Below are positions 1,758 through 16,391 of a stretch of 50,894 bases of DNA, one piece after another. Position numbers and translations under genes: made by a program. Numbering within the stretch: position 1 is the first letter of the stretch; each line of letters opens with the position of its first letter. The notes below the pieces were generated by a model. It saw only the letters and a program-made list of their open reading frames with translations. It searched no databases and was not told where the DNA came from. Source of the stretch: an uncultured Acidobacteriia bacterium (lineage in GTDB: Bacteria > Acidobacteriota > Terriglobia > Bryobacterales > Bryobacteraceae); NCBI GenBank assembly GCA_903900705.1, contig CAIUOG010000151.1, positions 1 through 50,894 on the forward strand, read 5' to 3'.

Positions 1758-2489
1758 ATGATTCAGGCCGAAAATCTCCGGAAATCCTTCGGAACCGTGT
1801 ATGCCGTGAACGGAGTTTCCTTTACGGCTCCCGATGGCGTTGTTACCGGGTTGCTGGGGCCCAACGGGGCGGGGAAGACCACCTCGCTGCGCATGGTCTA
1901 CGGCCTGATGCGGCCGGACAGCGGGACGATCCGCGTGGATGATTGCGATGTGGTGGCGGACCCCGTGGGGGCGCAGCGGAAGCTCGGCGTGCTGTCGGAC
2001 ATGTCCGGTCTCTATCCGCGCCTCACCTCGCGGGAGCATATACGCTATTTCGGTCAGTTGCAGGGCGTGCCCGCCGACGAACTGGAGAAGCGCATGGAGA
2101 AGCTGATCGAGATCATCGATCTGAAGTCCATCGCGGACCGCCGCGCGGGTGGCTTCTCGCATGGCGAACGCACGAAGGTTGCCCTCGCCAGAGCCCTGGT
2201 CCACAACCCGCAGAATATTCTTCTGGATGAGCCGACCAACGGTCTGGACGTGATGAGCACGCGCGCTGTGCGCGAGGTGATCCGGCACCTGAAATCCGAA
2301 AACCGCTGCGTGGTGTTTTCGAGCCACGTGATGCAGGAAGTCTCGGCGCTGTGCGATCGCATTGTGGTGATAGCCCGGGGGCGTGTGGTGGCGGAAGGCT
2401 CCGCCGGGGAACTGATTGAACTCTCCGGCAAGACGACGCTCGAAGACGCGTTTGTTGTGCTGGCGGGCCCGCAGGGCGAAGCCGAATGA
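1758..2489 (+). CDS. natA: ABC transporter ATP-binding protein, NatA-like
   Basis: This 243-residue ATPase subunit would power the export pump formed with the permease encoded next. It carries Walker A GPNGAGKTT (residues 34-42), a signature region FSHGERTKVALARAL in which the usual LSGGQ is replaced by FSHGE, Walker B ILLDEPTNGLD and a switch His in SSHVMQE. Length and the divergent signature match the Na+-efflux NatA/drug-export subfamily. ATG 1758 lies 16 bp after the hydrolase stop, and the permease begins 16 bp after this gene. The sodium substrate is an inference from family resemblance; other substrates handled by ABC-2 exporters are possible. Confidence 0.9.
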   Translation: MIQAENLRKSFGTVYAVNGVSFTAPDGVVTGLLGPNGAGKTTSLRMVYGLMRPDSGTIRVDDCDVVADPVGAQRKLGVLSDMSGLYPRLTSREHIRYFGQLQGVPADELEKRMEKLIEIIDLKSIADRRAGGFSHGERTKVALARALVHNPQNILLDEPTNGLDVMSTRAVREVIRHLKSENRCVVFSSHVMQEVSALCDRIVVIARGRVVAEGSAGELIELSGKTTLEDAFVVLAGPQGEAE

Positions 2490-2505
2490 AGAGGGGGGAA
2501 TCCGT

Positions 2506-3681
2506 ATGAATCTGTCGGCCATTCGCATTATTGCCCAAAAAGAACTGACCGATAGTTCCCGTGATCGCCGCGCCATGTACGCCCTCGTCTTCAGCACGCT
2601 CGTCGGGCCGTTGCTGATCGGCTTCATGCTGAACCAGATTGCGGGCCAGGAGAAGGCCGCGCATGAAATCAAAGTGCCGGTGGTCGGCGCGCAGTACTCC
2701 CCGCTCCTGATCAACTGGCTGAAACAGCAGCCCGGCGTGGAAGTGGTGACAGGTCCGGCCGACCCGGAAGCCGCGGTGCGCGACCGTAAATCGGACTTCG
2801 TGGTGGTTGTGGAGAAAGACTTCGCCGAAAAGTTCCGCGATACCCGCCCCGCGCCTGTGCAGTTGTATTCCGATTCCACGCGCCAGAACACGCGCGCGAA
2901 GGTGCGGCGCATTCGTTCTCTGCTGAACCGGTTTAATTCGGAGATTGCGGGTTTGCGGCTGATCGCCCGGGGCGTGAGCCCGTCTATCGCCAGCGCTCTC
3001 AAGCTGGAAGAGGTGGAAGTTTCCAACGCCGCCCAGCGCGCCGCGACCATCTTCAACATCATTCCGATGTTCCTGATACTGGCTGCGTTTTCCACCGGTA
3101 TGCAGATTGCCACCGATTCCACGGCGGGTGAGCGGGAACGCGGTTCGCTGGAACCGTTGCTGCTCAATCCGGTGCCGCGCTGGCAACTGGTGACCGGCAA
3201 ATGGCTGGCCGCAACGCTCGCCGCGCTGGCCGGCATGGTGATTACGCTGGTCATCACGGCGAAAGTTCTTTCGAGTCTGCCGCTGGAAGATCTGGGGGTG
3301 CGCTATCACCTGGGGCAGCATGAAATTCTTCTCCTCGTGCTGACGATTGCGCCGATTGCGATGATGGCGCCGGCGATTCAGATGTACCTCGCGTGCTTTG
3401 CGAAGTCCTTCAAAGAAGCGCAGAGCTACATGGGCTTTCTGGTGTTTGCCGTCACGATTCCGGGTGTTCTGTCGAGTTTCTATCCCATCAACAACCAGCC
3501 GTGGCTGCACCCGATTCCGATTCTGGGACAGTATGCGGCATCCATGGATATTCTGGCCGGGAAGCCGCCCTCGATGGTGGGTATGATCGTGTCCGCGGCG
3601 GCTTCGGTGGCGATGGTTGGGTTGTTCCTCGGGCTGGCGACAAAGCTGCTTTCGGCGGAGAAGATCATCTTTGGCCGGTAG
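2506..3681 (+). CDS. natB: ABC-2 type permease, NatB-like
   Basis: This 391-residue inner-membrane permease is the partner of the ATPase encoded 16 bp upstream. ATG 2506 is chosen over upstream in-frame codons because GAGGGGGGAA at 2491-2500 is a strong ribosome-binding site. One hydrophobic segment lies near the N-terminus (YALVFSTLVGPLLIGFML), followed by a large extracytoplasmic domain of about 160 residues. About five further membrane segments fill the C-terminal half. This layout is typical of NatB/YhaP-like ABC-2 exporters. The exported molecule cannot be read from sequence; Na+ is the family precedent. Confidence 0.87.
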   Translation: MNLSAIRIIAQKELTDSSRDRRAMYALVFSTLVGPLLIGFMLNQIAGQEKAAHEIKVPVVGAQYSPLLINWLKQQPGVEVVTGPADPEAAVRDRKSDFVVVVEKDFAEKFRDTRPAPVQLYSDSTRQNTRAKVRRIRSLLNRFNSEIAGLRLIARGVSPSIASALKLEEVEVSNAAQRAATIFNIIPMFLILAAFSTGMQIATDSTAGERERGSLEPLLLNPVPRWQLVTGKWLAATLAALAGMVITLVITAKVLSSLPLEDLGVRYHLGQHEILLLVLTIAPIAMMAPAIQMYLACFAKSFKEAQSYMGFLVFAVTIPGVLSSFYPINNQPWLHPIPILGQYAASMDILAGKPPSMVGMIVSAAASVAMVGLFLGLATKLLSAEKIIFGR

Positions 3682-3687
3682 CGGGCC

Positions 3688-3693
3688 GATAAT
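3688..3693 (+). promoter_or_regulatory. Possible -10 hexamer GATAAT close to the VOC gene start
   Basis: GATAAT ends 6 nt before ATG 3700. If used as a -10 element, transcription would begin at or near the start codon, giving a leaderless message. The site sits between two closely spaced co-directional genes, so read-through from natB is an alternative. AGAGG directly before the ATG is too close for a good ribosome-binding site. Confidence 0.25.
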
Positions 3694-3699
3694 AGAGGC

Positions 3700-4017
3700 A
3701 TGCTTCTCGATCAGCTCGATCACGTCGCCATTCCCGTTCAGGACATAGCCACATCCGTCGAATGGTACACGCGCACGTTTCAATGCCGCGTGAAGTATCA
3801 GGACGCCACCTGGGCGCTGCTGGGCTTTGGTAATATCGACGTCGCCCTGGTAATTCCGGAGCAGCATCCCGCGCATCTCGGCTTCGTGAGCCCCGAGGCC
3901 GAAAAGTACGGCGCGCTGAAGACGCATCGCGATGGTACGCGTTCCTGTTACGTGAGCGACCCTTCGGGCAATGCGGTCGAAATCCTGGCTGCGGATTCCA
4001 TGCCCCCCAAAGGCTAG
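3700..4017 (+). CDS. VOC (glyoxalase/bleomycin-resistance fold) family protein
   Basis: This 105-residue single-domain member of the vicinal oxygen chelate superfamily opens with LDHVAIPVQDIATSVEWYT, the classic first beta-alpha unit. It ends with a DPSGNAVEIL strand, and candidate metal ligands are His8, His59 and Glu94. The length suits a half-barrel that dimerises to form the active site. It is most like methylmalonyl-CoA epimerase/lactoylglutathione-lyase-type proteins but is shorter, so no reaction is assigned. The start is 18 bp after natB. The stop overlaps by 4 bp the stop of the convergent radical SAM gene. Confidence 0.85.
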   Translation: MLLDQLDHVAIPVQDIATSVEWYTRTFQCRVKYQDATWALLGFGNIDVALVIPEQHPAHLGFVSPEAEKYGALKTHRDGTRSCYVSDPSGNAVEILAADSMPPKG

Positions 4018-5084
4018 AGAGAGATCTGGACCAGGCCGCTCCGGCGCAGCATGTTCGCCGTCGGGAGGCCCGTTCTGACGAAGGCCTTTTCACAATCCGC
4101 GCCGGAGGGCCCGTACATGCTGCCTTCCATATAGGCGAGGCCCGGGCATCGCGAACAACTGCCCACGTGCCCGCAACCGGAGCAGACAGGCAGGTCGCGA
4201 GCGCGGATGGCGCGCACTTCCCTGAGTTTTTCTGAGTCGCGCCAGATCCGGGTAAACGCCTGCTCCCGCACGTTGCCGCAAGGCAGGGGGAACTGCACGC
4301 AGGGGTAGAGATTCCCGTGCGGCGAGATGTAGCAGGAGGTGTGGCCGGCGCTGCAGGGCGTACCGTCGAGCGTAGCGTCATCCACCGGCCCGGGCAGCGC
4401 GCGAAACGCCGCCACATCGCCCACCAGAGACTCTTTTGAATACACCTGGGAAAGCTCATCGCGGCTGATGTTCAGGCTCAGCGGGGAGCGATCCCCGTTC
4501 CAATGCGGCGTGATGGTGGGGTCGATGGTGAACTCCGCGTCGAGTTCGCGCGCCAGACTCTGCACGCCATCGAAATCGGTGGCATTCGATTTCATCAGCA
4601 CGCAGGCGATCACGACATGCACGCCGTTGTCGCGCAGCAGGCGAATCGCGCGCAGGGAGCGGTGGAGCGACCCGCGCACCTTCGTAATGGCGTCATGCGC
4701 TTCGGGGCGGTGCGAATAGATGCTGATCTGCACCTGATGGACGCCCAGTTCGCGAATCCACGCTATTTCCTTCGCGCCGGCCAACATCCCGTTCGTCTTC
4801 AGTTTGATGTCGAAACCGCGCAGACGGGCGTGGCGGACAATCTGTTCAAGGTCGCGGCGCAGAAAGATCTCGCCGCCGCTGAGGGTCAGGAAAAACACGC
4901 CCGCGGCCGCCATCTGATCCAGCAGGTCGCGCAGTTCCGCAAGACTGAGTTCGCTGTGATCGTCATGATCGAGATAGCAGTGGACGCAGCGTTCGTTGCA
5001 GGCCCAGGTGAGATCGATATGCACGCTCAGCGGGATGCCGCGTTCGGCCGCCCGCTGGTTGAGCTTTCCCATCAGGCCGCTCAT
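4014..5084 (-). CDS. Radical SAM/SPASM peptide-modifying enzyme (PqqE-like)
   Basis: This 356-residue radical SAM protein has the 4Fe-4S/SAM motif as CNERCVHC (Cys29, Cys33, Cys36). SAM-binding LSGGEIFLR follows, and the C-terminal SPASM region is Cys-rich (TPCSAG, SCYISPHGNLYPC, then CSGCGHVGSCSRC and a last Cys in GADC), expected to hold auxiliary Fe-S clusters. Enzymes of this architecture modify ribosomal peptides (PqqE, AlbA, thioether and cyclophane synthases). Its ATG overlaps the stop of the PqqD-like gene (ATGA), implying coupled synthesis with that probable leader-binding partner. It is the last gene of a four-gene leftward chain. The substrate is not known; the 58-residue peptide at 9341-9517 is the best local candidate. 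AnSME-type sulfatase maturation is an alternative, but no sulfatase is nearby. Confidence 0.9.
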   Translation of the reverse strand: MSGLMGKLNQRAAERGIPLSVHIDLTWACNERCVHCYLDHDDHSELSLAELRDLLDQMAAAGVFFLTLSGGEIFLRRDLEQIVRHARLRGFDIKLKTNGMLAGAKEIAWIRELGVHQVQISIYSHRPEAHDAITKVRGSLHRSLRAIRLLRDNGVHVVIACVLMKSNATDFDGVQSLARELDAEFTIDPTITPHWNGDRSPLSLNISRDELSQVYSKESLVGDVAAFRALPGPVDDATLDGTPCSAGHTSCYISPHGNLYPCVQFPLPCGNVREQAFTRIWRDSEKLREVRAIRARDLPVCSGCGHVGSCSRCPGLAYMEGSMYGPSGADCEKAFVRTGLPTANMLRRSGLVQISL

Positions 5085-5365
5085 GCCGGTTCCGTTCGAA
5101 GCAGCAGGATTCCATGCCCGGCCAGCGCCCGCGCGAATTCCTCCGCGTCGGCCAGCGCGGTGTCTGAGTCAATTTCGCTCACGCCGCAGATTTCGCGTTC
5201 CACGATTTCGCGCAGCGACGTTGTGCCATCGGCCGCCTGCCAGATGGCGGTGCCGGTTTCGTTCAGGTTGAAGAGGGACGAATCCGCCGGATTCATGACG
5301 ATTACCTCGCCGTCGAAGACGCGCGCCGCGACGTTTGCCGCCCGCAGCGGATAGAGTTCGCTCAC
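5081..5365 (-). CDS. PqqD-like peptide chaperone (RiPP recognition element)
   Basis: This 94-residue PqqD-family protein would bind a precursor leader and present it to the radical SAM enzyme. GTG 5365 is chosen because it overlaps the upstream stop (GTGA) and has GGGAG about 8 nt before it; the frame extends further upstream but would run into the kinase gene. The pattern RVFDGEVIVMNPADSSLFNLNETGTAIWQ is the hallmark of the fold (paired strands, then the helix containing the conserved Trp), followed by a helical C-terminus. The stop overlaps the radical SAM start by 4 nt. PqqD homologues also accompany HprK-like kinases in lasso-peptide and polysaccharide loci, which matches the gene before it. 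Confidence 0.88.
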   Translation of the reverse strand: MSELYPLRAANVAARVFDGEVIVMNPADSSLFNLNETGTAIWQAADGTTSLREIVEREICGVSEIDSDTALADAEEFARALAGHGILLLRTEPA

Positions 5366-6171
5366 CTGATCAGCTCCCAAACCAGCGCCTCCGGCCGGAA
5401 AGACAAACGGCACACCGGCACTGTTTCGATGAAGTCTTCCGCAATGGCAAATACCTGTTCCACCAGTTTCGGATCCTGCGCGAAGAACAGAATGTTGCGC
5501 AGCAGCATTCGCAGCGCCTCCGCGCGGCCCAGTTGCCCAATCCGGTTCCCGGACGCCTGTTCCAGGAAGTATAGCGCGCCCAGCGGCGCATGGATGTTCT
5601 CCCCCGCCTTGCCGAGTTCGCCGGCAAACGGGGTGCCGAAGGCCTGATAGCCACTTTTTCGCCCACAGTCGGGCCCGCCGTCACCTTTCCGCACGTAGGA
5701 TACTTCGTCGGTGAGCAGGCAGACGTCGGGCGGGGCGAGCCGGGAAAGGGTGGTTTTGCCCGCGCCGGAAACTCCGGAGAACACGAAGGCCTTCCCGTTG
5801 CGTACCGCGCTTGCCGCATGCAGCAGAAAGCCGCTCCCGGCGCGGGCCAGTTCAAGCGAGTGGATGATCCGGATCACGGAATCGATGCTGTGCCTGTTGG
5901 CGCTTTGCCGCACCTGTCCGCGCCGCGTCTTCGGATCGTACCGGGCCATGAAATCGCCGCGCCGCATTTCCCACGCCTCGCCATCGAACCGCACGGCCAG
6001 GTCTTCATCGGGAGACTGGAGCAGAGGCGGAGTCAGTTCCACCTCCAGCACAATGGGTGCGCCGTCCGTTTCCGCGCCGGTGAATGCGGCATACTGTTGC
6101 CGGAGAATCCCGAGGAAGACCGGATCGTCTGTTGCGATTCGCACGGCCAGGCCGCCAATCGTGACAATCAT
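5362..6171 (-). CDS. HprK-like serine kinase family protein
   Basis: This 269-residue P-loop protein resembles the C-terminal catalytic domain of HPr kinase/phosphorylase. Walker A is GVSGAGKTT (133-141), preceded by the conserved His119 in LLHAAS. LLTDEVSYV (152-160) holds the Walker-B-like Asp155. It lacks the N-terminal domain of true HprK, and no HPr gene is nearby. Homologues in lasso-peptide clusters phosphorylate a Ser of the precursor, so a peptide-directed kinase is the preferred idea. The ATG overlaps the stop of the peptidase gene (ATGA) and its own stop overlaps the PqqD-like start (GTGA). Kinase activity and target are inferred. Confidence 0.87.
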   Translation of the reverse strand: MIVTIGGLAVRIATDDPVFLGILRQQYAAFTGAETDGAPIVLEVELTPPLLQSPDEDLAVRFDGEAWEMRRGDFMARYDPKTRRGQVRQSANRHSIDSVIRIIHSLELARAGSGFLLHAASAVRNGKAFVFSGVSGAGKTTLSRLAPPDVCLLTDEVSYVRKGDGGPDCGRKSGYQAFGTPFAGELGKAGENIHAPLGALYFLEQASGNRIGQLGRAEALRMLLRNILFFAQDPKLVEQVFAIAEDFIETVPVCRLSFRPEALVWELIR

Positions 6172-6521
6172 GCCGCGTTCCGCAACTGCCAGCGGATATG
6201 CAGGCGGCGCAGCAGGCCGGGCGTCTCCTCAATTTCTTCCAGCAAGCCGAGCACGTCGGCGGCGTTGCGCGGCGGGTCATCCTGATCCAGGCCGTCACCC
6301 CGGGTCACCACCAGGCCGGCTGTCACGGACCGGACACGATGCAGTTGCACCCCGGACTCGCACCGAACCAGGACCACATCACCTGCCGCAATGCGCTCCA
6401 GGGAACTCCTGCGGATTCGCACCAGGCTGCCTGGGTAAAGGAACGGCACCATGCTGGTTCCGTTGACCCGCAGGCGAAGGTGTCCCGACATCGCCAGACT
6501 TTCCAGCGCCAGCTGCAGCAT
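6168..6521 (-). CDS. S26-type (signal-peptidase-like) peptidase, apparently soluble
   Basis: This 117-residue protein resembles S24/S26 peptidases. VNGTSMVPFLYPG places the nucleophile Ser23, GDVVLVR is the conserved strand, LHRV gives His61, and TRGDGLDQDD supplies acidic residues (Asp76-Asp82). A Ser/His/Asp arrangement with no Lys general base is that of ER/archaeal/SipW-type signal peptidases. There is no membrane segment, unlike genuine signal peptidases, so a cytoplasmic substrate is likely; a leader peptide is possible. The start at 6521 has AGGAAG 4 nt upstream. It is the first gene of the leftward chain and overlaps the kinase start by 4 nt. Confidence 0.82.
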   Translation of the reverse strand: MLQLALESLAMSGHLRLRVNGTSMVPFLYPGSLVRIRRSSLERIAAGDVVLVRCESGVQLHRVRSVTAGLVVTRGDGLDQDDPPRNAADVLGLLEEIEETPGLLRRLHIRWQLRNAA

Positions 6522-6548
6522 GCTTCCTGATTGTATAGTGGGCTTTCC
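6522..6548. promoter_or_regulatory. 27-bp divergent promoter region
   Basis: Only 27 bp separate the two divergent start codons. Rightward, TATAGT (6534-6539) ends 9 nt before ATG 6549, so a transcript would have almost no leader. Leftward, the complement contains TACAAT followed by AGGAAG and the ATG. The overlapping -10-like sequences suggest the two transcripts compete or are co-regulated. No clear -35 elements are seen. Confidence 0.35.
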
Positions 6549-9344
6549 ATGCCGTCTGTTGCTGAATCGCAATCCGGTCCCGAAGCGGCGCTGCTGCGGG
6601 AGTGCCTCCGGTGCTTCTGCCATACGGGGGACCCGGATCTCCTGCCGGCCCTCGCCGGGCAGGTTGGGGCCTGGGAGGTGTTCACGGCTCTGGCGCTGGA
6701 ACAGGAAGTCGCACCGCTGCTGGCCGGTTTCCTGCGCCAAATCCGCCCGCTGGTCCCGTCCCCGGTGTTGCTTGCGCTCCACAACGAGTACCGCGCCAAT
6801 GCGAAACGCTGTCTTGTCCTCACCACCGAACTGCGCCGCATTCTGGGCGTACTGGAAGAGGCCGGCATCAGACCCCTTGTGCTGAAGGGCCTTGCGCTCG
6901 CCGGAACTCTTTATGCCGACCCCGCGCTGCGCGCCACGGGCGATCTGGATCTGCTGGTGGAGGCGTCTGAGTTGCCCCGCGCACGGGCTCTCCTCGCGCT
7001 GGCCGGATACCAGGAGCCCGGCGCCGAGGCCTATCGCCGCGCCCAGGATGCCTTTCTGCCCTGGTACACCGAACTCACGCTCCACAACCCCACCACCGGC
7101 ATCGACATCGACCTTCATTGGGAGCTTCTGCCGCGCGGTTTCCCCTCGAACGTACCGCCCGGCTTCCGCGACCGCGCCGTTCCCTTCGACCTCCACGGCG
7201 CCAGGGCGTGGACTCTCAGCCCGGCGGATACTCTGGCCTTTCTTCTCCTCCACGGCGGCAAGCACGAGTGGTCGTCTCTCAAATGGGAGGTGGATGTCCG
7301 TCTGCTTCACGGCGAACCGACCCCACCCGCCCGCGGTTCTTTCCGACATCAGCTGTACCTCGCCCTCGTTCCCGCGCCGCCGGACTGGGAGACTCTCCGC
7401 CTTCCGCGTCATCTTTACTTTGTGTACTTTCCCTGGCGTTGGTTTCGGCTGGCCTTGAAACAGTGCGGCGTCAGGGTTCCAGTACGCGAACCACACACTT
7501 CCACCGGCCACCTGCGCGAGAATACAAAGATGCTTCGTTTGCCGCTGCTGGTGCTGTTTGCGTTACTGACTTCGCTTTGCGGCAGTGCCAGCGCTCAGGA
7601 AGCGGGAGGCCGCGTGGGTGTTCCTTATGACTGGTCGCACCGCCACACCGTGTTTGCCCAGTCGGGGAGCTTCGAAACGCAGTCCGCGCTCCAGAGTGAT
7701 CCCCGCTGGTGGCACAGCCAGTACCGGAAGTCGATGCCCCTGTTCAACGCGCCCGCCGGGCCCCCGCTCCGCGCGCGGGATGACCAGGGTGGCGGCAATT
7801 CCGGCAACGGCGGCGGTGGTCATGACGACGCGGACGATGATGGTCACGAAGGCGACAGCGGCAAGACGCAGGGCGCCGGAGCCAAGGTCGACTGGGGTGA
7901 ATCCCTTGGTACCTCTGCCCTCACCTATGGCGCGGCCGGAAACTACCCCGCCAAGTATTCGTTTAATGCCGCCAACCCGACGCCGGACTGCACCAACGAT
8001 TTTGTGGTTTTCACTCTGCCCACCGGCACTACAACCAAAGCCAACCTGGTAGCCTTCAAAAACCTGTATGTGGATAACAGCGGAACCGGTGTCTGCCCCG
8101 GTACGCTGCCCGTTGCCCTGTTCACCTACAACGCTTCCCAAAACGCGGGTTCGCTGGTGTCTTCCCCCGCGCTCTCGCTCGATGGCAAGCAGATCGCGTT
8201 CATCGAAAACGCCTCGTCCGCCCAGTTCCACGTGGTGAAATGGCGGGCGGGCGATGTTGCCGCGACGGTGGGTTCCCCGGTCAATACCGCAAAAATGGTC
8301 AACTGCGCCACCAACGGCGCGGTGGCGCCCTGCGAGTACAGCCTGATTTACAACACGGGCGCGGCCACTCTTTCCGCGCCGTACATCGACTATGCCACGG
8401 ACACCGCCTATGTCTCCAACGATGGCGGCAAGATCGTGGCCATCTCCCCGGTCTTCGGCGGTGGTCAGCCAGCGATCCGGTTCACCATTACTGTCGCGGG
8501 CAGCGGCACTATGACCGCTCCGGTGTATGACTCGGTCTCGAAAAATCTCTTCGTCGCCGATAAGACAGGCAAGCTGTACTACATCCGGACGGCCGCCACC
8601 TCAAACGGCGCCTGCGCTACGGGTTCGGCACCCTGCCTCGGGACGCCTACGCTGAACGTCTCCAATGGCAAGGCGATTGTGGAAACGCCTGTCGTCGATT
8701 CGGCCAGCGGCACGGTCTTCGTCTTCTCGAACAGTTCTCCCACCGGAACGAACTCCTCCGTGGTACAGACCGATACGAAGCTGAGTACGTCGCGAGTAGC
8801 CACCGTCGGCCCGGCGGGCACCCAGAACGCCTTCGCGGGCGCTTTCAGTAACAGCTACTTCAACAGCCCCGCGACCGGGATGCTCTACGTCTGCGGCACT
8901 CTCGCCGGAAACATCCCTCAGCTTTACGGCATCTCATTCACGGGCACCCTGATGAACACCGGCACCGCCGCGAAGGGGCCCCTGGCGCTCGCTACCGCCA
9001 CCACCGGATGCTCCGCGCTGACGGAGGTCTTTAACCAGTCACTGGCGAAGGACGAGTTGTACCTCAGCGTCGCGACCCGCTGCTCCGCCACCATTACGGG
9101 CGGCTGCGTGAAGCGCTTCGATATCACTTCCACCTTCCCCACGGCAATCACCAACGCGGTTGCCGAAAACGGCGGCACCACCGGCCTGGTGATCGATAAC
9201 GTGAGTAACGGGGCGAGCGGCAATGCCAGCCAGACCAATATTTACTTCGTCACGAAGAGCACCCAGTCCTGCTCGAAATACACGACCGGAACGCAGGCGA
9301 CGGCCAACTGCGCCGTGAAGCTGACGCAGGCGGCCTTACAATGA
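6549..9344 (+). CDS. Nucleotidyltransferase (NTP_transf_5-like) joined in frame to a secreted beta-propeller protein
   Basis: This is one uninterrupted frame of 931 codons from ATG 6549 (TTG 6531 is an earlier alternative). Residues about 1-325 form a nucleotidyltransferase: GDLDLLV gives the metal-binding Asp132/Asp134, and IDIDLHWEL gives Asp188. The ending APPDWETLRLP...FRLALK is typical of the family. Between KWEVDVRLL and SFRHQLYLALV, however, some 60-90 residues usual in this family seem to be missing. From residue 328 a perfect signal sequence begins, followed by the propeller described in the next entry. As one chain it would be a type II membrane protein with the enzyme inside and the propeller outside. 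Otherwise the second part is translated from its own ATG. NTP_transf_5 proteins accompany HprK-like kinases in some RiPP loci, which fits the divergent genes. Confidence 0.75.
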   Translation: MPSVAESQSGPEAALLRECLRCFCHTGDPDLLPALAGQVGAWEVFTALALEQEVAPLLAGFLRQIRPLVPSPVLLALHNEYRANAKRCLVLTTELRRILGVLEEAGIRPLVLKGLALAGTLYADPALRATGDLDLLVEASELPRARALLALAGYQEPGAEAYRRAQDAFLPWYTELTLHNPTTGIDIDLHWELLPRGFPSNVPPGFRDRAVPFDLHGARAWTLSPADTLAFLLLHGGKHEWSSLKWEVDVRLLHGEPTPPARGSFRHQLYLALVPAPPDWETLRLPRHLYFVYFPWRWFRLALKQCGVRVPVREPHTSTGHLRENTKMLRLPLLVLFALLTSLCGSASAQEAGGRVGVPYDWSHRHTVFAQSGSFETQSALQSDPRWWHSQYRKSMPLFNAPAGPPLRARDDQGGGNSGNGGGGHDDADDDGHEGDSGKTQGAGAKVDWGESLGTSALTYGAAGNYPAKYSFNAANPTPDCTNDFVVFTLPTGTTTKANLVAFKNLYVDNSGTGVCPGTLPVALFTYNASQNAGSLVSSPALSLDGKQIAFIENASSAQFHVVKWRAGDVAATVGSPVNTAKMVNCATNGAVAPCEYSLIYNTGAATLSAPYIDYATDTAYVSNDGGKIVAISPVFGGGQPAIRFTITVAGSGTMTAPVYDSVSKNLFVADKTGKLYYIRTAATSNGACATGSAPCLGTPTLNVSNGKAIVETPVVDSASGTVFVFSNSSPTGTNSSVVQTDTKLSTSRVATVGPAGTQNAFAGAFSNSYFNSPATGMLYVCGTLAGNIPQLYGISFTGTLMNTGTAAKGPLALATATTGCSALTEVFNQSLAKDELYLSVATRCSATITGGCVKRFDITSTFPTAITNAVAENGGTTGLVIDNVSNGASGNASQTNIYFVTKSTQSCSKYTTGTQATANCAVKLTQAALQ
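7530..9344 (+). CDS. Secreted beta-propeller protein, possible internal start within the fused frame
   Basis: ATG 7530 begins a textbook signal peptide (LPLLVLFALLTSLCGSASAQ), so this 604-residue section probably acts outside the cytoplasm. After the signal comes VPYDWSHRHTVF and DPRWWHSQYR, which I recognise only loosely from secreted acidobacterial proteins. A Gly/Asp/His-rich low-complexity linker (about residues 88-115) follows. The rest has repeated blades such as APVYDSVSKNLFVADKTGKLYYI and TPVVDSASGTVFVFSN, resembling PQQ/WD40-type propellers. No enzymatic motif is seen. A ribosome-binding site before ATG 7530 is weak (GCGAGAA). The stop TGA is shared with the ATG of the small peptide gene (ATGA). 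Confidence 0.6.
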   Translation: MLRLPLLVLFALLTSLCGSASAQEAGGRVGVPYDWSHRHTVFAQSGSFETQSALQSDPRWWHSQYRKSMPLFNAPAGPPLRARDDQGGGNSGNGGGGHDDADDDGHEGDSGKTQGAGAKVDWGESLGTSALTYGAAGNYPAKYSFNAANPTPDCTNDFVVFTLPTGTTTKANLVAFKNLYVDNSGTGVCPGTLPVALFTYNASQNAGSLVSSPALSLDGKQIAFIENASSAQFHVVKWRAGDVAATVGSPVNTAKMVNCATNGAVAPCEYSLIYNTGAATLSAPYIDYATDTAYVSNDGGKIVAISPVFGGGQPAIRFTITVAGSGTMTAPVYDSVSKNLFVADKTGKLYYIRTAATSNGACATGSAPCLGTPTLNVSNGKAIVETPVVDSASGTVFVFSNSSPTGTNSSVVQTDTKLSTSRVATVGPAGTQNAFAGAFSNSYFNSPATGMLYVCGTLAGNIPQLYGISFTGTLMNTGTAAKGPLALATATTGCSALTEVFNQSLAKDELYLSVATRCSATITGGCVKRFDITSTFPTAITNAVAENGGTTGLVIDNVSNGASGNASQTNIYFVTKSTQSCSKYTTGTQATANCAVKLTQAALQ

Positions 9345-9517
9345 GGCAAATGGGACAGGACAAGACAGAAACAGCGCACGAGCCGAAAAAGGAAGCGAAA
9401 AAGCCTTACGTGAAGCCCGCGTTTGTCTTCGAGCGCGCGTTTGAAACCATGGCGCTTTCCTGTGGCAAGATCAATACCACCCAGGCGCAGTGCCGTTTCA
9501 ACCGCAAGAATTCCTAG
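9341..9517 (+). CDS. Candidate RiPP precursor peptide, 58 residues
   Basis: This small frame starts at ATG 9341, overlapping the upstream stop (ATGA), or at ATG 9350 with GAGG before it. It ends at TAG 9515-9517 and fills a gap with no other gene. The first 20 residues are charged (Lys/Glu-rich). Then comes KKPYVKPAFVFERAF, a YxxP-hydrophobic pattern like leader motifs bound by PqqD-type recognition elements. The tail begins at MALSCGK (Cys41) and includes Cys51, polar Thr/Gln/Asn residues and a basic C-terminus, with no membrane segment. The position beside radical SAM, PqqD-like, HprK-like, peptidase and nucleotidyltransferase genes makes it the best substrate candidate. The role is inferred; no homologue could be searched. 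Confidence 0.65.
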   Translation: MRQMGQDKTETAHEPKKEAKKPYVKPAFVFERAFETMALSCGKINTTQAQCRFNRKNS

Positions 9518-11607: not shown

Positions 11608-11691
11608 ATGAAACGTATACTAAGACAAATACGGTATCAGCGGTCTATGGCCCCCACTTGTGTGAAGTCGCAGACGTTTTCAGGTTCCGGG

Positions 11692-12645
11692 ATGTCTGTC
11701 CGGTCGAGGTTCCTCGGCGCGGTAGTCGGAGTATTGCTGTTCCTGACGTGCCTGTACGGCCAGGTTCCCGCGACCATGTCCTCGTACGTGCTGGGGCAGG
11801 GCGACCAGGTGACTCTCCGCGTTGTGGAGGCCGACGAAATTCCGGACAAGCCGTTTCGCATCGACGAGAAGGGCTCCATTGATGTCCCGATGATCGGCGC
11901 GGTGCATGCCGCCGGGCTCACGGTCCACGAGTTGCAGACCCTTCTGGTGACCCGCTTCACGGCCTTTATCAAAAATCCACAGGTTGCGGTCTTTGTGAAT
12001 GAAATGCGCAGCCAGCCGGTTTCCGTGCTGGGCGCCGTCAATCTGCCGGGCGTTCACCAACTGCAGGGGCACAAGACCCTGGTGGAAGTTCTGGCCACGG
12101 CGGGAGGGTTGAAGCCCGATGCGGGTTACAGCGTTCGGATTACCCGCCACATGGAGTGGGGCCAGGTGCCGCTTCCGGGTTCCAGCGTCACCCCGGACGG
12201 CCTCTACAGCGTTGGCGAGGTCGGGCTGAAAGGCCTGCTCGAAGCGAAGAATCCGGCGGACAACATTGCCGTGATGCCCAACGACGTGCTTACCATCCCG
12301 GTGGCGGAGATGATCTATGTTCTGGGCGACGTTCGCAAATCCGGCGGGTTCGTGCTGGGTGAGCGCAAGGGCGTGTCCGTGCTGCAGGCCCTGGCCATGG
12401 CGGAGGGAACTACCCCTCTCGCGCGCAGCAATGAAGCGCGGATTTTGCGCAACAGCCCGGGCTCGGAGGTCCGCGCCGAAATACCTGTGGATCTGAAAAA
12501 AATCATGAACGGGCAGGCCATCGATATCGCCATGCAGTCGAACGATGTCCTTTTTGTTCCCACCAGCGGCGTAAAGAAAATTCGGGAAAGGGCACTGGAC
12601 GCGATCTTCGCCATCGGTTCCGGTGTGGCGATTTACAGACCCTGA
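11692..12645 (+). CDS. Polysaccharide export outer-membrane protein, Wza-like
   Basis: This 317-residue protein is expected to form the outer-membrane channel through which exopolysaccharide leaves the cell. ATG 11692 is preferred over ATG 11608 because it directly starts a signal peptide (FLGAVVGVLLFLTCLYGQ) and has CAGG 7 nt upstream. The mature part begins with YVLGQGDQVTLRV and IDEKGSIDVPMIGAVHAAGLT, the Poly_export signature. SLBB-like repeats follow (PVSVLGAVNLPGVHQLQG and IYVLGDVRKSGGFVLG). No lipobox Cys is present. The stop overlaps the tyrosine-kinase start (TGATG), the usual order of exporter and co-polymerase genes. Confidence 0.9.
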   Translation: MSVRSRFLGAVVGVLLFLTCLYGQVPATMSSYVLGQGDQVTLRVVEADEIPDKPFRIDEKGSIDVPMIGAVHAAGLTVHELQTLLVTRFTAFIKNPQVAVFVNEMRSQPVSVLGAVNLPGVHQLQGHKTLVEVLATAGGLKPDAGYSVRITRHMEWGQVPLPGSSVTPDGLYSVGEVGLKGLLEAKNPADNIAVMPNDVLTIPVAEMIYVLGDVRKSGGFVLGERKGVSVLQALAMAEGTTPLARSNEARILRNSPGSEVRAEIPVDLKKIMNGQAIDIAMQSNDVLFVPTSGVKKIRERALDAIFAIGSGVAIYRP

Positions 12646-14975
12646 TGCCTGATCGTGAACTCATGCGTCGCCGCGCAGGTCTGACGCCGGACTCCTTTCC
12701 CCCAGGAGTCCCGGGGCTCCCTCCTGTTTCCGAGGAAACCGATGCGGGGCTGCAGCCCATACCCGTCATCCAGTTTCTGCGCATGCTCTGGATGCGTCGC
12801 GCCACGGTGCTGATTCTGGCCGCTCTTGGCGCGCTGATCGGTCTGCTCTTTCTGCTCCCGCAGCCCCCCCAGTACCGCGCCGAAGTCGCGGTGGAGGTTC
12901 AGGCGCTGAATGAGGATTTTCTCTACAGCCGCGACGTGAACCCGAACTCTACCCAGAGCAATATCTTTCCCGAGGTCGATCTGGCCACCCAGGCACGCCT
13001 TCTGCGCACGCAGAGCCTGCTCTCCCGCGTGAAAGCCCGCCTCGCGTCCGACCCGTCGCTCCATATTGAAGCGCCGCCTGATCGCCTGGCGGCCTGGCGC
13101 AAAGTCCTCCACCTGCCTGGCGAGAGGCGCCCCACTCCGGACGAGATGCTCACTGAGACTGCCGCCAGCGTTCGCGTGAATCCCACCCGCAACACGCGGA
13201 TCATCTCGATCTCCTGTGATTCGGGCGACCCTAAACTGGCGGCCGCCTTCGCCAATAAGATGGCTTCCGAGTACATCGACCAGACGCTCGAAAACCGCTG
13301 GCAGTCGGCCCAGCACACCGGCGAGTGGCTGGGCCGCCAGATGGACGAGATGAAGATCAAGCTGGAGCGGTCTGAACAGCAGTTGCAGACCTATGCGGCG
13401 GCGATGAATCTGGTTGTCACCTCCGACGCGCAGAAGGTCAATGTTTCAGAAGAAAAGCTCCGTCAGGTACAGGCGGAATTGTCGGCCGCCGAAGCTGAGC
13501 GCGTCTCCCGGCAGGCCCGCTATGAACAGGTGGTCTCCGGCCGCATCGAGTCGCTCGGTCAGGTGGTGGATGATGCGTCGCTGCGTACCTTTGAGGTAAA
13601 GCTTGCGGACATGCGACGGGAACTGGCAGATCTCAGTTCCACCTTTACCCCCGCGCATTACAAGGTTCAGAAACTGCAGGCGCAGATAGCCGAAATGGAG
13701 TCCGAGCAAAAGAAGGCGCGGGCCCGTATCGCGGAACGCATCTACGGCGAATTTCGCGAAGCGGAACGCCGCGAAAAGCTTCTCGCCGCGCAGTATGAGT
13801 CGCAGTCGGCACTGGTTTCCGACCAGGCCGGCAAGCTGGTGCATTACAGTCTGCTGCAGCGGGAAGTGGAAACCAATCGCCAACTCTACGAAACGCTTCT
13901 GCACAAAGTGAAGGAAGCCGGCATCAGCGCGGCATTGCGGGCCTCCAACATCCGGATCGCGGACCCTGCTGAGATCCCCACCTCCCCGTTTGCCCCCAAC
14001 CTGCTGAGAGGCAGCGCGCTCGGGTTGCTGTTGGGCCTTTGCGGCGGCGTGGCTCTCGCCTTCATTCAGGAACGCGCCGATCGTAGCATTCAGATCCCGG
14101 CGGACGCGGCCTTCTACCTGAATGTGCCCCTGCTGGGGGTTGTACCTTCCTGGTCCCTCGACCGAAAGCGGGGCTATGAACGACAACTGATCGCCGGGGC
14201 GGTGGAGAAAAGCCCCGTCCTGAGCGATTTCACGGGCGGCAGTTCCGCTGTGTCGGAAGGGCTTCGCGCCATTCTCACTTCCATCCTGTTTACGGAGCGC
14301 CGCACGCCTCTCCAGGTCATGGTGGTCAGCAGTCCGGGCATTTCGGAAGGCAAGACCACCGTCGCCTGCAATCTCGCGCTTGCGTACGCCGAAGCGGGGC
14401 GCAGTGTGCTGTTGATCGATTGCGACATGCGGCGCCCCCGGCTGCATGATATTTTCGACGTGCCGAACGATTCCGGACTCGCCAGCCTGCTCGCCGTCAA
14501 AGAGCCGCTGGATACCCGCTCCATCTTCCGCGCGGCCCGCAGCACCCGTTACCCGGGCGTGAGCCTGCTGACGAGCGGCATTCCGGAAAACGGAGCGGCC
14601 AATCTGCTGCATTCCCGCCGTCTTGGAGAGTTCCTCGCGATTGCCCGCGAACAGTTTGATGTGGTTTTGCTCGACACGCCGCCGCTGCTGCAGCTTGCCG
14701 ATGCGCGCATCGTTGGCTCCTACGCCGACGGACTGCTGATGGTGATCCGGGCGGGCCACACCACACGGGACAGCGCGGTCGCCGCGCGCCAGCAACTGGC
14801 GGAGGATGGCATCCCGGTCCTCGGTGTTGCGCTGAACGACTGGAACCCGCGTTTCCCCGAATACTACGGCTACGACTACTATTCGAAGGGCTATTCGGGC
14901 AAAGAGAACTCGGGCAAAGAGAATTCCGGCAGAGCGAACCCCGGCAGCTCCGGCCCCGAAAATCCGGTATCCTGA
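12645..14975 (+). CDS. Wzc-like polysaccharide co-polymerase and BY-type tyrosine kinase
   Basis: This 776-residue inner-membrane protein controls chain length and couples to the exporter. A first membrane segment is at about 53-71 (ATVLILAALGALIGLLFLL). A long periplasmic Wzz/GumC region with coiled coils (about 230-400) follows. A second membrane segment (GSALGLLLGLCGGVALAFI) lies near 450, then the cytoplasmic kinase. Walker A is SEGKTT with Lys570, Walker A' is LLIDCDMRRP, and Walker B is VLLDTPP. The C-terminus has the autophosphorylation cluster with six Tyr between 740 and 750, followed by a short tandem repeat. It starts on the TGATG overlap with the exporter gene; the polymerase/ligase gene follows after 9 bp. 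Confidence 0.92.
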   Translation: MPDRELMRRRAGLTPDSFPPGVPGLPPVSEETDAGLQPIPVIQFLRMLWMRRATVLILAALGALIGLLFLLPQPPQYRAEVAVEVQALNEDFLYSRDVNPNSTQSNIFPEVDLATQARLLRTQSLLSRVKARLASDPSLHIEAPPDRLAAWRKVLHLPGERRPTPDEMLTETAASVRVNPTRNTRIISISCDSGDPKLAAAFANKMASEYIDQTLENRWQSAQHTGEWLGRQMDEMKIKLERSEQQLQTYAAAMNLVVTSDAQKVNVSEEKLRQVQAELSAAEAERVSRQARYEQVVSGRIESLGQVVDDASLRTFEVKLADMRRELADLSSTFTPAHYKVQKLQAQIAEMESEQKKARARIAERIYGEFREAERREKLLAAQYESQSALVSDQAGKLVHYSLLQREVETNRQLYETLLHKVKEAGISAALRASNIRIADPAEIPTSPFAPNLLRGSALGLLLGLCGGVALAFIQERADRSIQIPADAAFYLNVPLLGVVPSWSLDRKRGYERQLIAGAVEKSPVLSDFTGGSSAVSEGLRAILTSILFTERRTPLQVMVVSSPGISEGKTTVACNLALAYAEAGRSVLLIDCDMRRPRLHDIFDVPNDSGLASLLAVKEPLDTRSIFRAARSTRYPGVSLLTSGIPENGAANLLHSRRLGEFLAIAREQFDVVLLDTPPLLQLADARIVGSYADGLLMVIRAGHTTRDSAVAARQQLAEDGIPVLGVALNDWNPRFPEYYGYDYYSKGYSGKENSGKENSGRANPGSSGPENPVS
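14895..14939 (+). repeat. Three tandem 15-bp units at the end of the tyrosine kinase gene
   Basis: Three in-frame 15-bp copies encode SGKEN, SGKEN and SGRAN just after the Tyr cluster (from codon 751). The first two differ by one base. Such units change copy number easily, so tail length may vary between strains. Confidence 0.75.
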
Positions 14976-14984
14976 CCCTTACCG

Positions 14985-16391
14985 GTGCCCCGTCCTTCCG
15001 CCAGAACCGACGCGTTCTTTCTGCTGAGCTGGGGCGTCATCTTCGCCTTTACCGTTGTTTCCTTCGGCGGCGTCACCAGGCCGGAATGGTCCTGGTCGGT
15101 TCTGGCGCTGGCAGCGTTCGCCGTCCTTCTGTGGGGCGTGGGGCCGGTCGCGCGGCTGGCGCCGGCACTTTCCCCGCTGCTGCTCGCGGCAGCTCTTGTT
15201 GCGCCGCTCTACGTCGCCCTGCAGATGTTGCCGCTTCCACCGGGTCTGCTGCGACTTCTCTCACCCGGCCGCGCAGGCGTGTCCGACGCGCTCGCCCCGC
15301 TTGGCGCCGCCGGGGCGCACTGGATACCGCTCACGGTCGACCCCTGGGCCACCGCGCAGCATTTCGTCCGTCTGCTGGCCTATCTGGTTACGTTCCTCGC
15401 CGCCCGCGAACTTGGCTGGCGGTACGCCCGCCGCCGCTGGATCCTCACGCTGCCGGTTCTCTGTGTAGCCCTCGCTGAAGCCGCGCTTGGCCTCTTCCAG
15501 TACCGGAATGGCGCGCCGCATGCCACCGGCACTTATGTGAATCCGAATCACTTCGCGGGGCTGCTGGAGCTTTCGCTTCCGTTTGCGGTGATGTACTCGC
15601 TCAGCCGCCTGCGCCGCCTCCACCAGACCATTCCCGAGGCGTTGCTTTTCATCGCACTCTGGGCCGGATCGCTGCTTCTCTTTCTGGGGGTTGCCTACTC
15701 GTTATCCCGTTCCGGACTGGCCGCGACGTTGATTTCCATGGTCATGGGGATCGCCCTGCTGGCCGCGCGAAGCCGCGCCCGCTGGCTGGCCCTGCTGCCG
15801 GTGGCGCTGTGCCTGATGATTCTGTTGTCCGTCCCCATTCCGCTGCTGGACCGGCTTTCCTCTTCCTCCGCCCCCGAAACCGCCGCCGCCACTGGTGAAA
15901 TCAGCGCCCAAACCCGGCTGCGGTTCTGGCGCGAAACCCTGCTGCTGGTGCGCGACTACCCTGTTTTCGGCTGCGGACTGGGTACTTACGTTTCCGCAAT
16001 CCAGAAGTACCGCTCGTCCGCGCCCCTCAGTCTGCTCGATTACGCGCACAACGATTACCTGCAACTGCTGGCTGAACTCGGGCTGGCCGGTTTTGTGCCC
16101 GGCATCCTGCTCGCCGCCTGGTTTCTGGTCCGGATCTTCCGCACGGCGCTCGACCCCACCCTCAGTACCAACTCGGGCTATCTCGCGATTGCCTGCGCCA
16201 CTGCCCTGGTTGCTCTGGCCGTGCACAGCCTGACCGATTTCAACCTTTACATTCCCGCCAATGCGATGTTGGCCGCCTGGGTCGCGGGCATAGCCGGCGC
16301 GCTGGAAGTGGCCCCGGAACGCGTCCTGCGGAAGCGGTCCTCGACGGGCTATTACTCCGGCGCGAACGATATCGTCGCCTCCGCGCCGTAG
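14985..16391 (+). CDS. O-antigen ligase/polymerase family membrane protein
   Basis: This 468-residue protein with about ten or more membrane segments starts at GTG 14985, 9 bp after the kinase gene. The signature of the Wzy_C/WaaL superfamily is clear: RLRFWRETLLLVRDYPVFGCGLGTY and the loop HNDYLQLLAELGLAGF, where the His and the preceding Arg residues are typically essential. It would join or polymerise lipid-linked oligosaccharides at the periplasmic face. Its place after a Wza-like exporter and a Wzc-like kinase suggests the polymerase for the same exopolysaccharide, although ligases share the fold. The last 40 bp overlap the convergent gene. Confidence 0.88.
   Translation: MPRPSARTDAFFLLSWGVIFAFTVVSFGGVTRPEWSWSVLALAAFAVLLWGVGPVARLAPALSPLLLAAALVAPLYVALQMLPLPPGLLRLLSPGRAGVSDALAPLGAAGAHWIPLTVDPWATAQHFVRLLAYLVTFLAARELGWRYARRRWILTLPVLCVALAEAALGLFQYRNGAPHATGTYVNPNHFAGLLELSLPFAVMYSLSRLRRLHQTIPEALLFIALWAGSLLLFLGVAYSLSRSGLAATLISMVMGIALLAARSRARWLALLPVALCLMILLSVPIPLLDRLSSSSAPETAAATGEISAQTRLRFWRETLLLVRDYPVFGCGLGTYVSAIQKYRSSAPLSLLDYAHNDYLQLLAELGLAGFVPGILLAAWFLVRIFRTALDPTLSTNSGYLAIACATALVALAVHSLTDFNLYIPANAMLAAWVAGIAGALEVAPERVLRKRSSTGYYSGANDIVASAP

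Follow-up and report, generated by a model that had tools for sequence, protein, structure and literature searches.

What kind of peptide is made by a locus in which a radical SAM/SPASM enzyme, a PqqD-like protein, a kinase-like protein and a peptidase lie beside a nucleotidyltransferase (NTase) sequence and an open reading frame (ORF) of only 58 residues? The question is raised by positions 4014 to 9517 of a contig (CAIUOG010000151.1, C151 in our numbering) from an uncultured Acidobacteriia bacterium of the Bryobacteraceae; the whole stretch analyzed, 50,894 nucleotides, is referred to below as the window. A sequence-only reading had described the locus as encoding a ribosomally synthesized and post-translationally modified peptide (RiPP), altered by a radical SAM enzyme and perhaps also phosphorylated or nucleotidylated. 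Its observation is confirmed and its interpretation partly supported by the analysis presented here. We give a probability of about 0.68 to the reading that the locus belongs to a radical-SAM branch of the phosphopeptide RiPPs that resemble lasso peptides and the linear polyphosphorylated peptides (LPPs), operating by the mechanism proposed below.

The layout is as previously described, with one correction. Four genes on the minus strand overlap by 4 nt at each of their three junctions, and the first of them starts at ATG 6521, divergent across a gap of 27 bp (6522..6548) from a plus-strand ORF that starts at ATG 6549; this gap would leave little space for two promoters. The plus-strand ORF extends to 9344 (937 codons) and overlaps the peptide ORF (9341..9517, plus strand) by 4 nt. 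This overlap had been assigned to an NTase gene; the overlap stands but the assignment does not, because the ORF is composite and the part that meets the peptide gene is a beta-propeller rather than the NTase domain.

Relatives were collected through the radical SAM gene. A scan of genomes confirmed the gene at 96 places; the best 80 of these were retained and, with the window, make up 81 loci, several of them from one assembly; 20 more stretches from genomes of the class, mostly more distant matches, brought the total to 101. They come mostly from metagenome-assembled genomes (MAGs) of Acidobacteriota, together with Candidatus Binatus, Proteobacteria- and Burkholderiales-labelled MAGs, Nevskia soli and Thermomonas beijingensis. 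Iterated profiles detected the PqqD-like gene in 78 of the 81 loci, the HprK-like kinase in 74, the S26 peptidase in 73, the peptide in 69, the propeller gene (called SEC) in 48 and the NTase in 39, counts that are in-sample because the profiles grew on those loci. A frequent gene order is SEC-peptide-S26-HprK-PqqD-radical SAM. A second clade, found in the added stretches, usually has the order HprK-PqqD-radical SAM-peptide, with S26 further on, and the peptide was found in 18 of these 20. Overall, 87 of the 101 loci hold a peptide ORF of the same family, the opposite of the consistently peptide-less clusters that the sequence-only reading had named as the outcome that would overturn it. In addition, one locus (L070) has a peptide copy truncated by the contig end, and five of the seven peptide-less loci whose genome was searched hold a peptide gene elsewhere in that genome.

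The association holds when the two proteins are searched separately in 399 genomes of the class, the radical SAM protein at E <=1e-70 and the peptide profile at E <=0.001. The radical SAM protein was found in 56 genomes, the peptide in 54 and both in 52; by comparison of the lists by eye, G066, G168, G219 and G375 have only the radical SAM protein and G190 and G223 only the peptide. Fisher's test of this co-occurrence gives 7.5e-58, a value uncorrected for ancestry and obtained on genomes some of which also fed the profile. Both genes are on one contig in 49 of the 52 genomes (the exceptions are G195, G231 and G239). Their distribution is patchy, the radical SAM gene being present in 6 of the closest 61 genomes, the window's own included (E <=1e-30).

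The peptide itself is strongly constrained. In the window, its leader motif extends from Tyr23 (9407) to Thr36 (which ends at 9448) and is followed by Cys41 (9461), Cys51 (9491) and the C-terminal Ser58 (9512-9514). The proposed core would be residues 37-58 (9449..9514, plus strand) if the leader is cut after F-E-T, as alignment with the LPP leader suggests, or 41-58 if it is cut before Cys41, as the -3/-1 residues would permit. Seventy first-clade tails, from which one match lacking YxxP was excluded, conform to Y-x-K-P-x-F-R-x-E-x-V-F-E-T-x-A-L-x-C-G-K-x(3)-T-Q-x(2)-C-x(6)-S with near-constant length, and 63 of them have exactly two Cys. The leader ends in FET, YET or FVT in 86/88 sequences, and the third residue thereafter is Leu in 87/88. 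Ahead of the first core Cys, position -3 is Ala in 88/89 and position -1 is Ser, Ala, Thr or Gly in 84/89, with Arg, Ile or His in the other five. The last residue is Ser in 89 of the family's 91 ORFs, the exceptions being an extended frame (L071) and a fragment (L089); in the aligned set of 88 it is conserved in 87, and the next commonest Ser/Thr position reaches 48. Many members of the second clade have an almost unchanged core (ACGKLPGQGGVCNAAPRRS), nearly identical between genera, with L093, L095, L098 and L108 differing more. Codon differences across 111 close gene pairs are 1688 synonymous versus 427 non-synonymous: the peptide is under purifying selection and is more than a chance ORF. 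Membership of a known peptide family was rejected, as 24 members searched against NCBIfam and Pfam gave only single-member matches at chance level (E 0.014 to 0.17). A lasso ring is a lactam from residue 1 to an Asp or Glu at positions 7-9, and the window core, MALSCGKINTTQAQCRFNRKNS, has neither residue. In one genome (G423, that of L058) there are four peptide matches, one partial and one weak with two internal TAG stops; here, copies of the peptide gene arise and degenerate outside the cluster.

The presumed modifying enzyme for this core is the radical SAM/SPASM protein (4014..5084, minus strand, ATG 5084), a proposed peptide cross-linker with Pfam matches to Radical_SAM (8e-22) and SPASM (2e-11). 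Its CxxxCxxC motif is present in 101/101 aligned relatives and its later Cys in 100-101/101. Searched with phmmer against solved chains, it has SkfB, a sactisynthase, as its best relative by sequence (2e-18), and the pairing of such an enzyme with a Cys-containing precursor is a feature of sactipeptide and ranthipeptide systems. Thioether formation is the most likely reaction, as a best guess and not a result. The NCBIfam models rank differently, with AhbD (136 bits), MftC (129) and GeoRSP (126) above SkfB (77), all below cut-off; the PqqE model also scores above SkfB. In Thermomonas beijingensis RSS-23 (L090, 9980-11083) the radical SAM gene is split into two adjoining stop-to-stop pieces.

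The three remaining minus-strand genes supply candidate functions for leader binding, phosphorylation and proteolysis. The PqqD-like protein (5081..5365, GTG 5365), proposed as a discrete RiPP recognition element (RRE) that binds the leader, matches PF05402 at 1.5e-13, has a lasso PqqD model as its best NCBIfam match (6e-6, below cut-off) and is present in 98/101 loci. The putative kinase (5362..6171, ATG 6171) matches only ScmC (1.7e-9) and PEPCK_ATP (0.0017), both below cut-off. Its predicted structure (pLDDT 90.9, pTM 0.88) retrieves PEP carboxykinases first in Foldseek and HprK/P after them, more weakly, which is consistent with an HprK/PEPCK fold. Aligned kinases keep a His in 93/93, the P-loop Lys in 92/93 and an Asp-Glu pair in 93/93; a match is present in 93/101 loci, and the window's own genome has one kinase of this family and one peptide copy. 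The S26/SipW-type protein (6168..6521) has only weak matches, under the cut-offs, to signal peptidase I TIGR02228 (7e-6) and to Peptidase_S24 (4e-4), and its relatives keep Ser in 89/90, His in 90/90 and Asp in 89/90. The sequence-only reading had given it no role; it is likely the leader peptidase, by analogy with LppS of the LPP system, described as having a Ser-His-Asp catalytic triad (PMC13381572). Taken together, the co-occurrence, the catalytic residues and the near-invariant C-terminal Ser give good support to a radical-SAM RiPP locus that has a Cys-containing precursor and a probable peptide kinase but no lasso cyclase.

The closest known system is that of the LPPs of Bacillota (PMC13381572, 2026). 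According to the portions of that report available to us, LPP clusters encode a SipW-like peptidase, a discrete RRE, an HprK-like kinase, an NTP-transferase and an MsbA-like pump, and the precursor, with the motif YxxPxVLxHQxIxFETxxS, is cleaved after FET and polyphosphorylated at core Ser3. The Ser-His-Asp peptidase residues, the discrete RRE and the HprK-like kinase fold are all recognizable here, as is a YxxP...FET leader, with no cyclase needed and a possible proximity to polysaccharide loci; an NTP-transferase is matched in 45/101 loci and is shortened in the window. However, FET lies two residues nearer the Tyr than in the full LPP motif, core position 3 is Leu and not Ser, and the system has in addition a radical SAM/SPASM enzyme and two core Cys. 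Furthermore, its core and C-terminal Ser are conserved, whereas LPP C termini are highly variable, and its hosts are Acidobacteriota and others rather than Bacillota. No MsbA-like pump was recognized next to the cluster in the window, whose sole ABC pair is of ABC-2 type; other loci were not searched for such pumps. The strings 'radical' and 'acidobacteri' have zero occurrences in the text of PMC13381572.

The phosphorylated lasso peptides (paeninodin, pseudomycoidin, Bsf) likewise share a YxxPx[L/F] leader, a discrete RRE, an HprK-like kinase and an NTase, and precursors of the paeninodin type end in a Ser that is phosphorylated by HprK homologues, as far as the accessible parts of two reports describe them (PMC8498205, PMC10368454). 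The window's cluster differs in having no identified lasso cyclase or B2 peptidase and in having the radical SAM enzyme and an S26 peptidase. A lasso peptide was rejected: the genome contains six Asn_synthase matches and contig C151 none, in agreement with the sequence-only reading, which had noted the lack of a cyclase. Because FET spacing, core Leu3, the two Cys, the C-terminal Ser and the radical SAM enzyme set it apart, the locus is not filed as LPP or lasso. By analogy, it would instead work as those pathways do, supplemented by a radical step. The same genome also carries a lasso-type cluster on contig C52 (L118, G000:C52:48500-57000, at 3050-6335), with a PqqD-like protein, a 55-aa precursor that has a YxxP leader and a Ser end, an Asn-synthetase-like cyclase and an HprK-like kinase bearing Asp-Asp, which shares 26% identity with the window's kinase over 165 columns. 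The two systems are therefore separate and both pathways exist in one genome, as LPP and lasso clusters often do in Bacilli according to the same LPP report (PMC13381572).

More distant comparisons are each partial. SkfB and other sactipeptide or ranthipeptide systems also use a SPASM radical SAM enzyme on a Cys-containing precursor, whereas the window adds a separate RRE, a kinase, an NTase and an S26 peptidase, and has only two Cys. The SynChlorMet cassette consists of kinase-like, PqqD-like and radical SAM/SPASM proteins, and its NCBIfam models ScmC, ScmD, ScmE and ScmF match the corresponding proteins here but far below their cut-offs (37.5 versus 125 bits, 23.7 versus 100, and 97 and 68 versus 400, respectively). 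Quinohemoprotein amine dehydrogenase, which includes a propeller subunit, served us solely as a template for thinking about how a peptide and a protein may pair. The available text on its gamma subunit and QhpD describes a leader-bearing peptide that receives its cross-links from a radical SAM enzyme, is cleaved by a protease and, once exported, joins periplasmic subunits; that peptide is longer and has a quinone, and the system has a heme subunit and no kinase (PMC7876137). In the limited open-licence literature searched, no peptide pathway was found to combine a radical SAM enzyme with a kinase of the HprK type, which does not imply that none is in print.

Based on the above data, we propose the following mechanism. 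The PqqD-like RRE would bind the Y-x-K-P-x-F leader of the 58-residue precursor and present the peptide to the enzymes. The radical SAM/SPASM enzyme would oxidize the core, most likely forming one or more thioether links from Cys41 and/or Cys51, and the HprK-like kinase would phosphorylate Ser58, as in paeninodin-type lasso precursors. The SipW-type peptidase would then release the core, the likeliest cut being the one known from LPP, directly behind F-E-T, and an intact NTase, where present, may decorate the phosphate. The mature peptide is expected to act outside the cytoplasm, in many loci perhaps with a secreted beta-propeller and in others via ABC-2 export. The product would be a short peptide, probably with thioether linkage, phosphorylated on its C-terminal Ser and perhaps a propeller partner. 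What the sequences show is the gene set with its conservation and co-occurrence, the catalytic residues and the folds predicted; the chemistry, the point of cleavage, export and the role are inferred.

The composite ORF bears on the last two of these steps. Its NTase part (6549..7529, plus strand, C-terminal limit uncertain) matches PF14907 NTP_transf_5 at 1e-45, and the Lys-Gly, Arg and Asp-x-Asp residues are kept in 45/45 sequences. It lacks two runs of 34 and 46 columns (~80 residues) that are well filled in 37 homologues, so that the window's NTase is shortened and probably impaired. Since it is also continuous with the propeller, and only 45/101 loci have an NTase match, nucleotidylation is doubtful. 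As the main modification it was rejected, being weakened further by the pseudomycoidin N protein, which a review, in the part available, reports to add hexoses onto the phosphate (PMC8498205). The earlier suggestion of a phosphorylated or nucleotidylated peptide thus keeps its first half, a probable peptide kinase supported by co-occurrence, catalytic residues and the C-terminal Ser.

The NTase part reads in frame into SEC (7530..9344, plus strand) with no stop between; SEC has its own ATG at 7530, followed by a signal-peptide-like stretch, and its relatives are separate genes in other loci. Separate translation products are likelier, in our view, than one polypeptide. For the continuity across 6549-9344 itself, a real fusion, a lost stop and an assembly error are indistinguishable. 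The model of SEC is a beta-propeller (pLDDT 75.4, pTM 0.80) whose Foldseek matches are generic propellers with no function named; its profile matches designed and natural propellers, TolB and BamB. Pfam recognizes no family in the window's protein and gives a weak propeller match in 6/35 relatives. SEC occurs in 49/101 loci (the window and 48 others) and a distinct ABC-2 permease in 18/101, never both, and the two states switch at least four times on a quick radical SAM tree with many weak branches. SEC immediately precedes the peptide, with both genes on one strand, in 35 loci; elsewhere its place is downstream of the radical SAM gene. Eight loci of clade 2 (L095, L097-L103) instead have a large protein of a different family after the peptide. 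Of six such proteins scanned, five match the propeller family PF13570 far below cut-off, three of these five also match PQQ_2 above cut-off, and the sixth, cut by a contig end, matches CBM96 only. The SEC profile does not detect these proteins, and two unrelated-looking propeller types therefore go with one peptide family. Peptide and propeller genes are duplicated together in L089 (where the second peptide is split between frames), L097 and L103, and this joint duplication is the best hint of function. In L097 (9990-15618) and L103 (3519-9058) there are two peptide genes each, every one with its own large secreted-type propeller protein downstream, some with CBM96.

How far do other explanations fit the same observations? 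The radical SAM step might produce a C-C or ether link, a decarboxylation or an epimerization, possibly towards a PqqE- or MftC-like redox cofactor. SPASM enzymes are chemically diverse in the partial sources available, and the AhbD, MftC and PqqE models outscore SkfB; we nevertheless regard such chemistry as possible rather than probable, given the two conserved Cys and the first place of SkfB among solved chains. Tyr occurs in only 2/90 cores and Trp in none, so that PQQ- or mycofactocin-like Tyr chemistry does not apply. It also appears unlikely that the kinase targets another residue or another protein, the C-terminal Ser being conserved for a different reason. Five loci keep that Ser with no local kinase, and LppK and BsfK act on core Ser3, not on the C-terminal Ser, in the available parts of their reports (PMC13381572, PMC10368454). 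Here, however, core position 3 is a near-invariant Leu and the C-terminal Ser is by far the most conserved hydroxyl. Least probable of all, and in our estimate highly improbable, is a plain LPP or lasso pathway in which the radical SAM gene is incidental. Leader motif and tailoring genes are held in common, and the own genome has a lasso-type cluster; the presence of a radical SAM gene in all loci proves nothing, because the loci were found through it. The separately searched peptide profile, however, finds a peptide without the radical SAM gene in only 2/399 genomes, and both a cyclase on the window's contig and core Ser3 are absent.

Two further alternatives concern proteolysis and export. 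Signal peptidases follow a -3/-1 rule, and the A-L-[S/A/T] before Cys41, with Ala at -3 and mostly Ser, Ala, Thr or Gly at -1, would suit an S26 cut at that point; the five sequences with Arg, Ile or His at -1 and the retention of FET, YET or FVT speak against it. We rank this site second, after F-E-T, because LPP, the homologous system, is cut after FET in the published account as far as available (PMC13381572). A stronger competitor, falling only somewhat short of even odds, is that the peptide is exported and acts on its own, as a signal or an antimicrobial, with the propeller gene a mere neighbor. It would account for the 18 loci with an ABC-2 permease instead of SEC and for eight clade-2 loci (L093, L094, L096, L104-L108) with neither partner. 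On the other hand, the core is conserved and not hypervariable, to the point of near identity between clade-2 genera, SEC directly precedes the peptide in many loci, and propeller genes are co-duplicated with it in three. We retain the radical-SAM phosphopeptide reading, in which the peptide perhaps has a propeller partner.

Several observations weigh against this reading. The genomes of L060 and L072 are without any peptide match. Eight of 101 loci have no good kinase match: L048 and L088 are cut or peptide-less, L103 has a partial match, and L019, L022, L035, L051 and L061 have a Ser-ending peptide without a local kinase. A kinase could act in trans in these last five, since a second peptide gene is present in four of the five genomes, and L022 has an assembly prefix in common with L069, which has a kinase. 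The window-family kinase has Asp-Glu where Asp-Asp is described for lasso kinases in the available part of PMC10368454. In eleven loci, some of which lie at contig ends, S26 is not well matched, and no exporter was recognized in the propeller loci. Lastly, the thioether chemistry is left unspecified by NCBIfam models that place AhbD, MftC and GeoRSP above SkfB.

An ABC ATPase (1758..2489, plus strand) and an ABC-2 permease (2416..3681, plus strand), both identified by Pfam, are neighbors that do not clearly belong to the system. They were rejected as its exporter: none of the other 100 loci has a relative of the permease at 1e-10, and a VOC gene intervenes. A small glyoxalase-fold gene (3700-4017) is convergent with the radical SAM gene and scores 25.7 versus 180 bits against fosfomycin-resistance models, far below cut-off. 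Beside the locus, at 11608-16391, lie Poly_export, Wzz/tyrosine-kinase and O-antigen ligase genes; LPP clusters are reported to have such neighbors. A general linkage to polysaccharide was rejected, with relatives of the window's export protein in 2/101 loci and of its Wzc-like protein in 3/101, window included, many loci being short.

If true, the proposed reading would bring together, on a single small peptide, cross-linking by a radical SAM enzyme and phosphorylation of the lasso/LPP type, in a phylum, the Acidobacteriota, that is little represented in the radical-SAM RiPP literature searched. As a tentative and rather unlikely extension, radical-SAM-cross-linked peptides whose C-terminal Ser is capped by phosphate or phospho-sugar might be widespread prosthetic or accessory subunits of secreted beta-propellers, a peptide-cofactor system built from lasso/LPP parts and not an antibiotic pathway. 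Relatives of the locus occur in many soil bacteria, and the conserved core together with the secreted-propeller pairing suggests a standing cellular role, not warfare. The roles of LPPs and paeninodins are called unknown by the LPP authors in the text available (PMC13381572); a cultivable relative, Granulicella mallensis X5P3 (L047), would open that question to testing.

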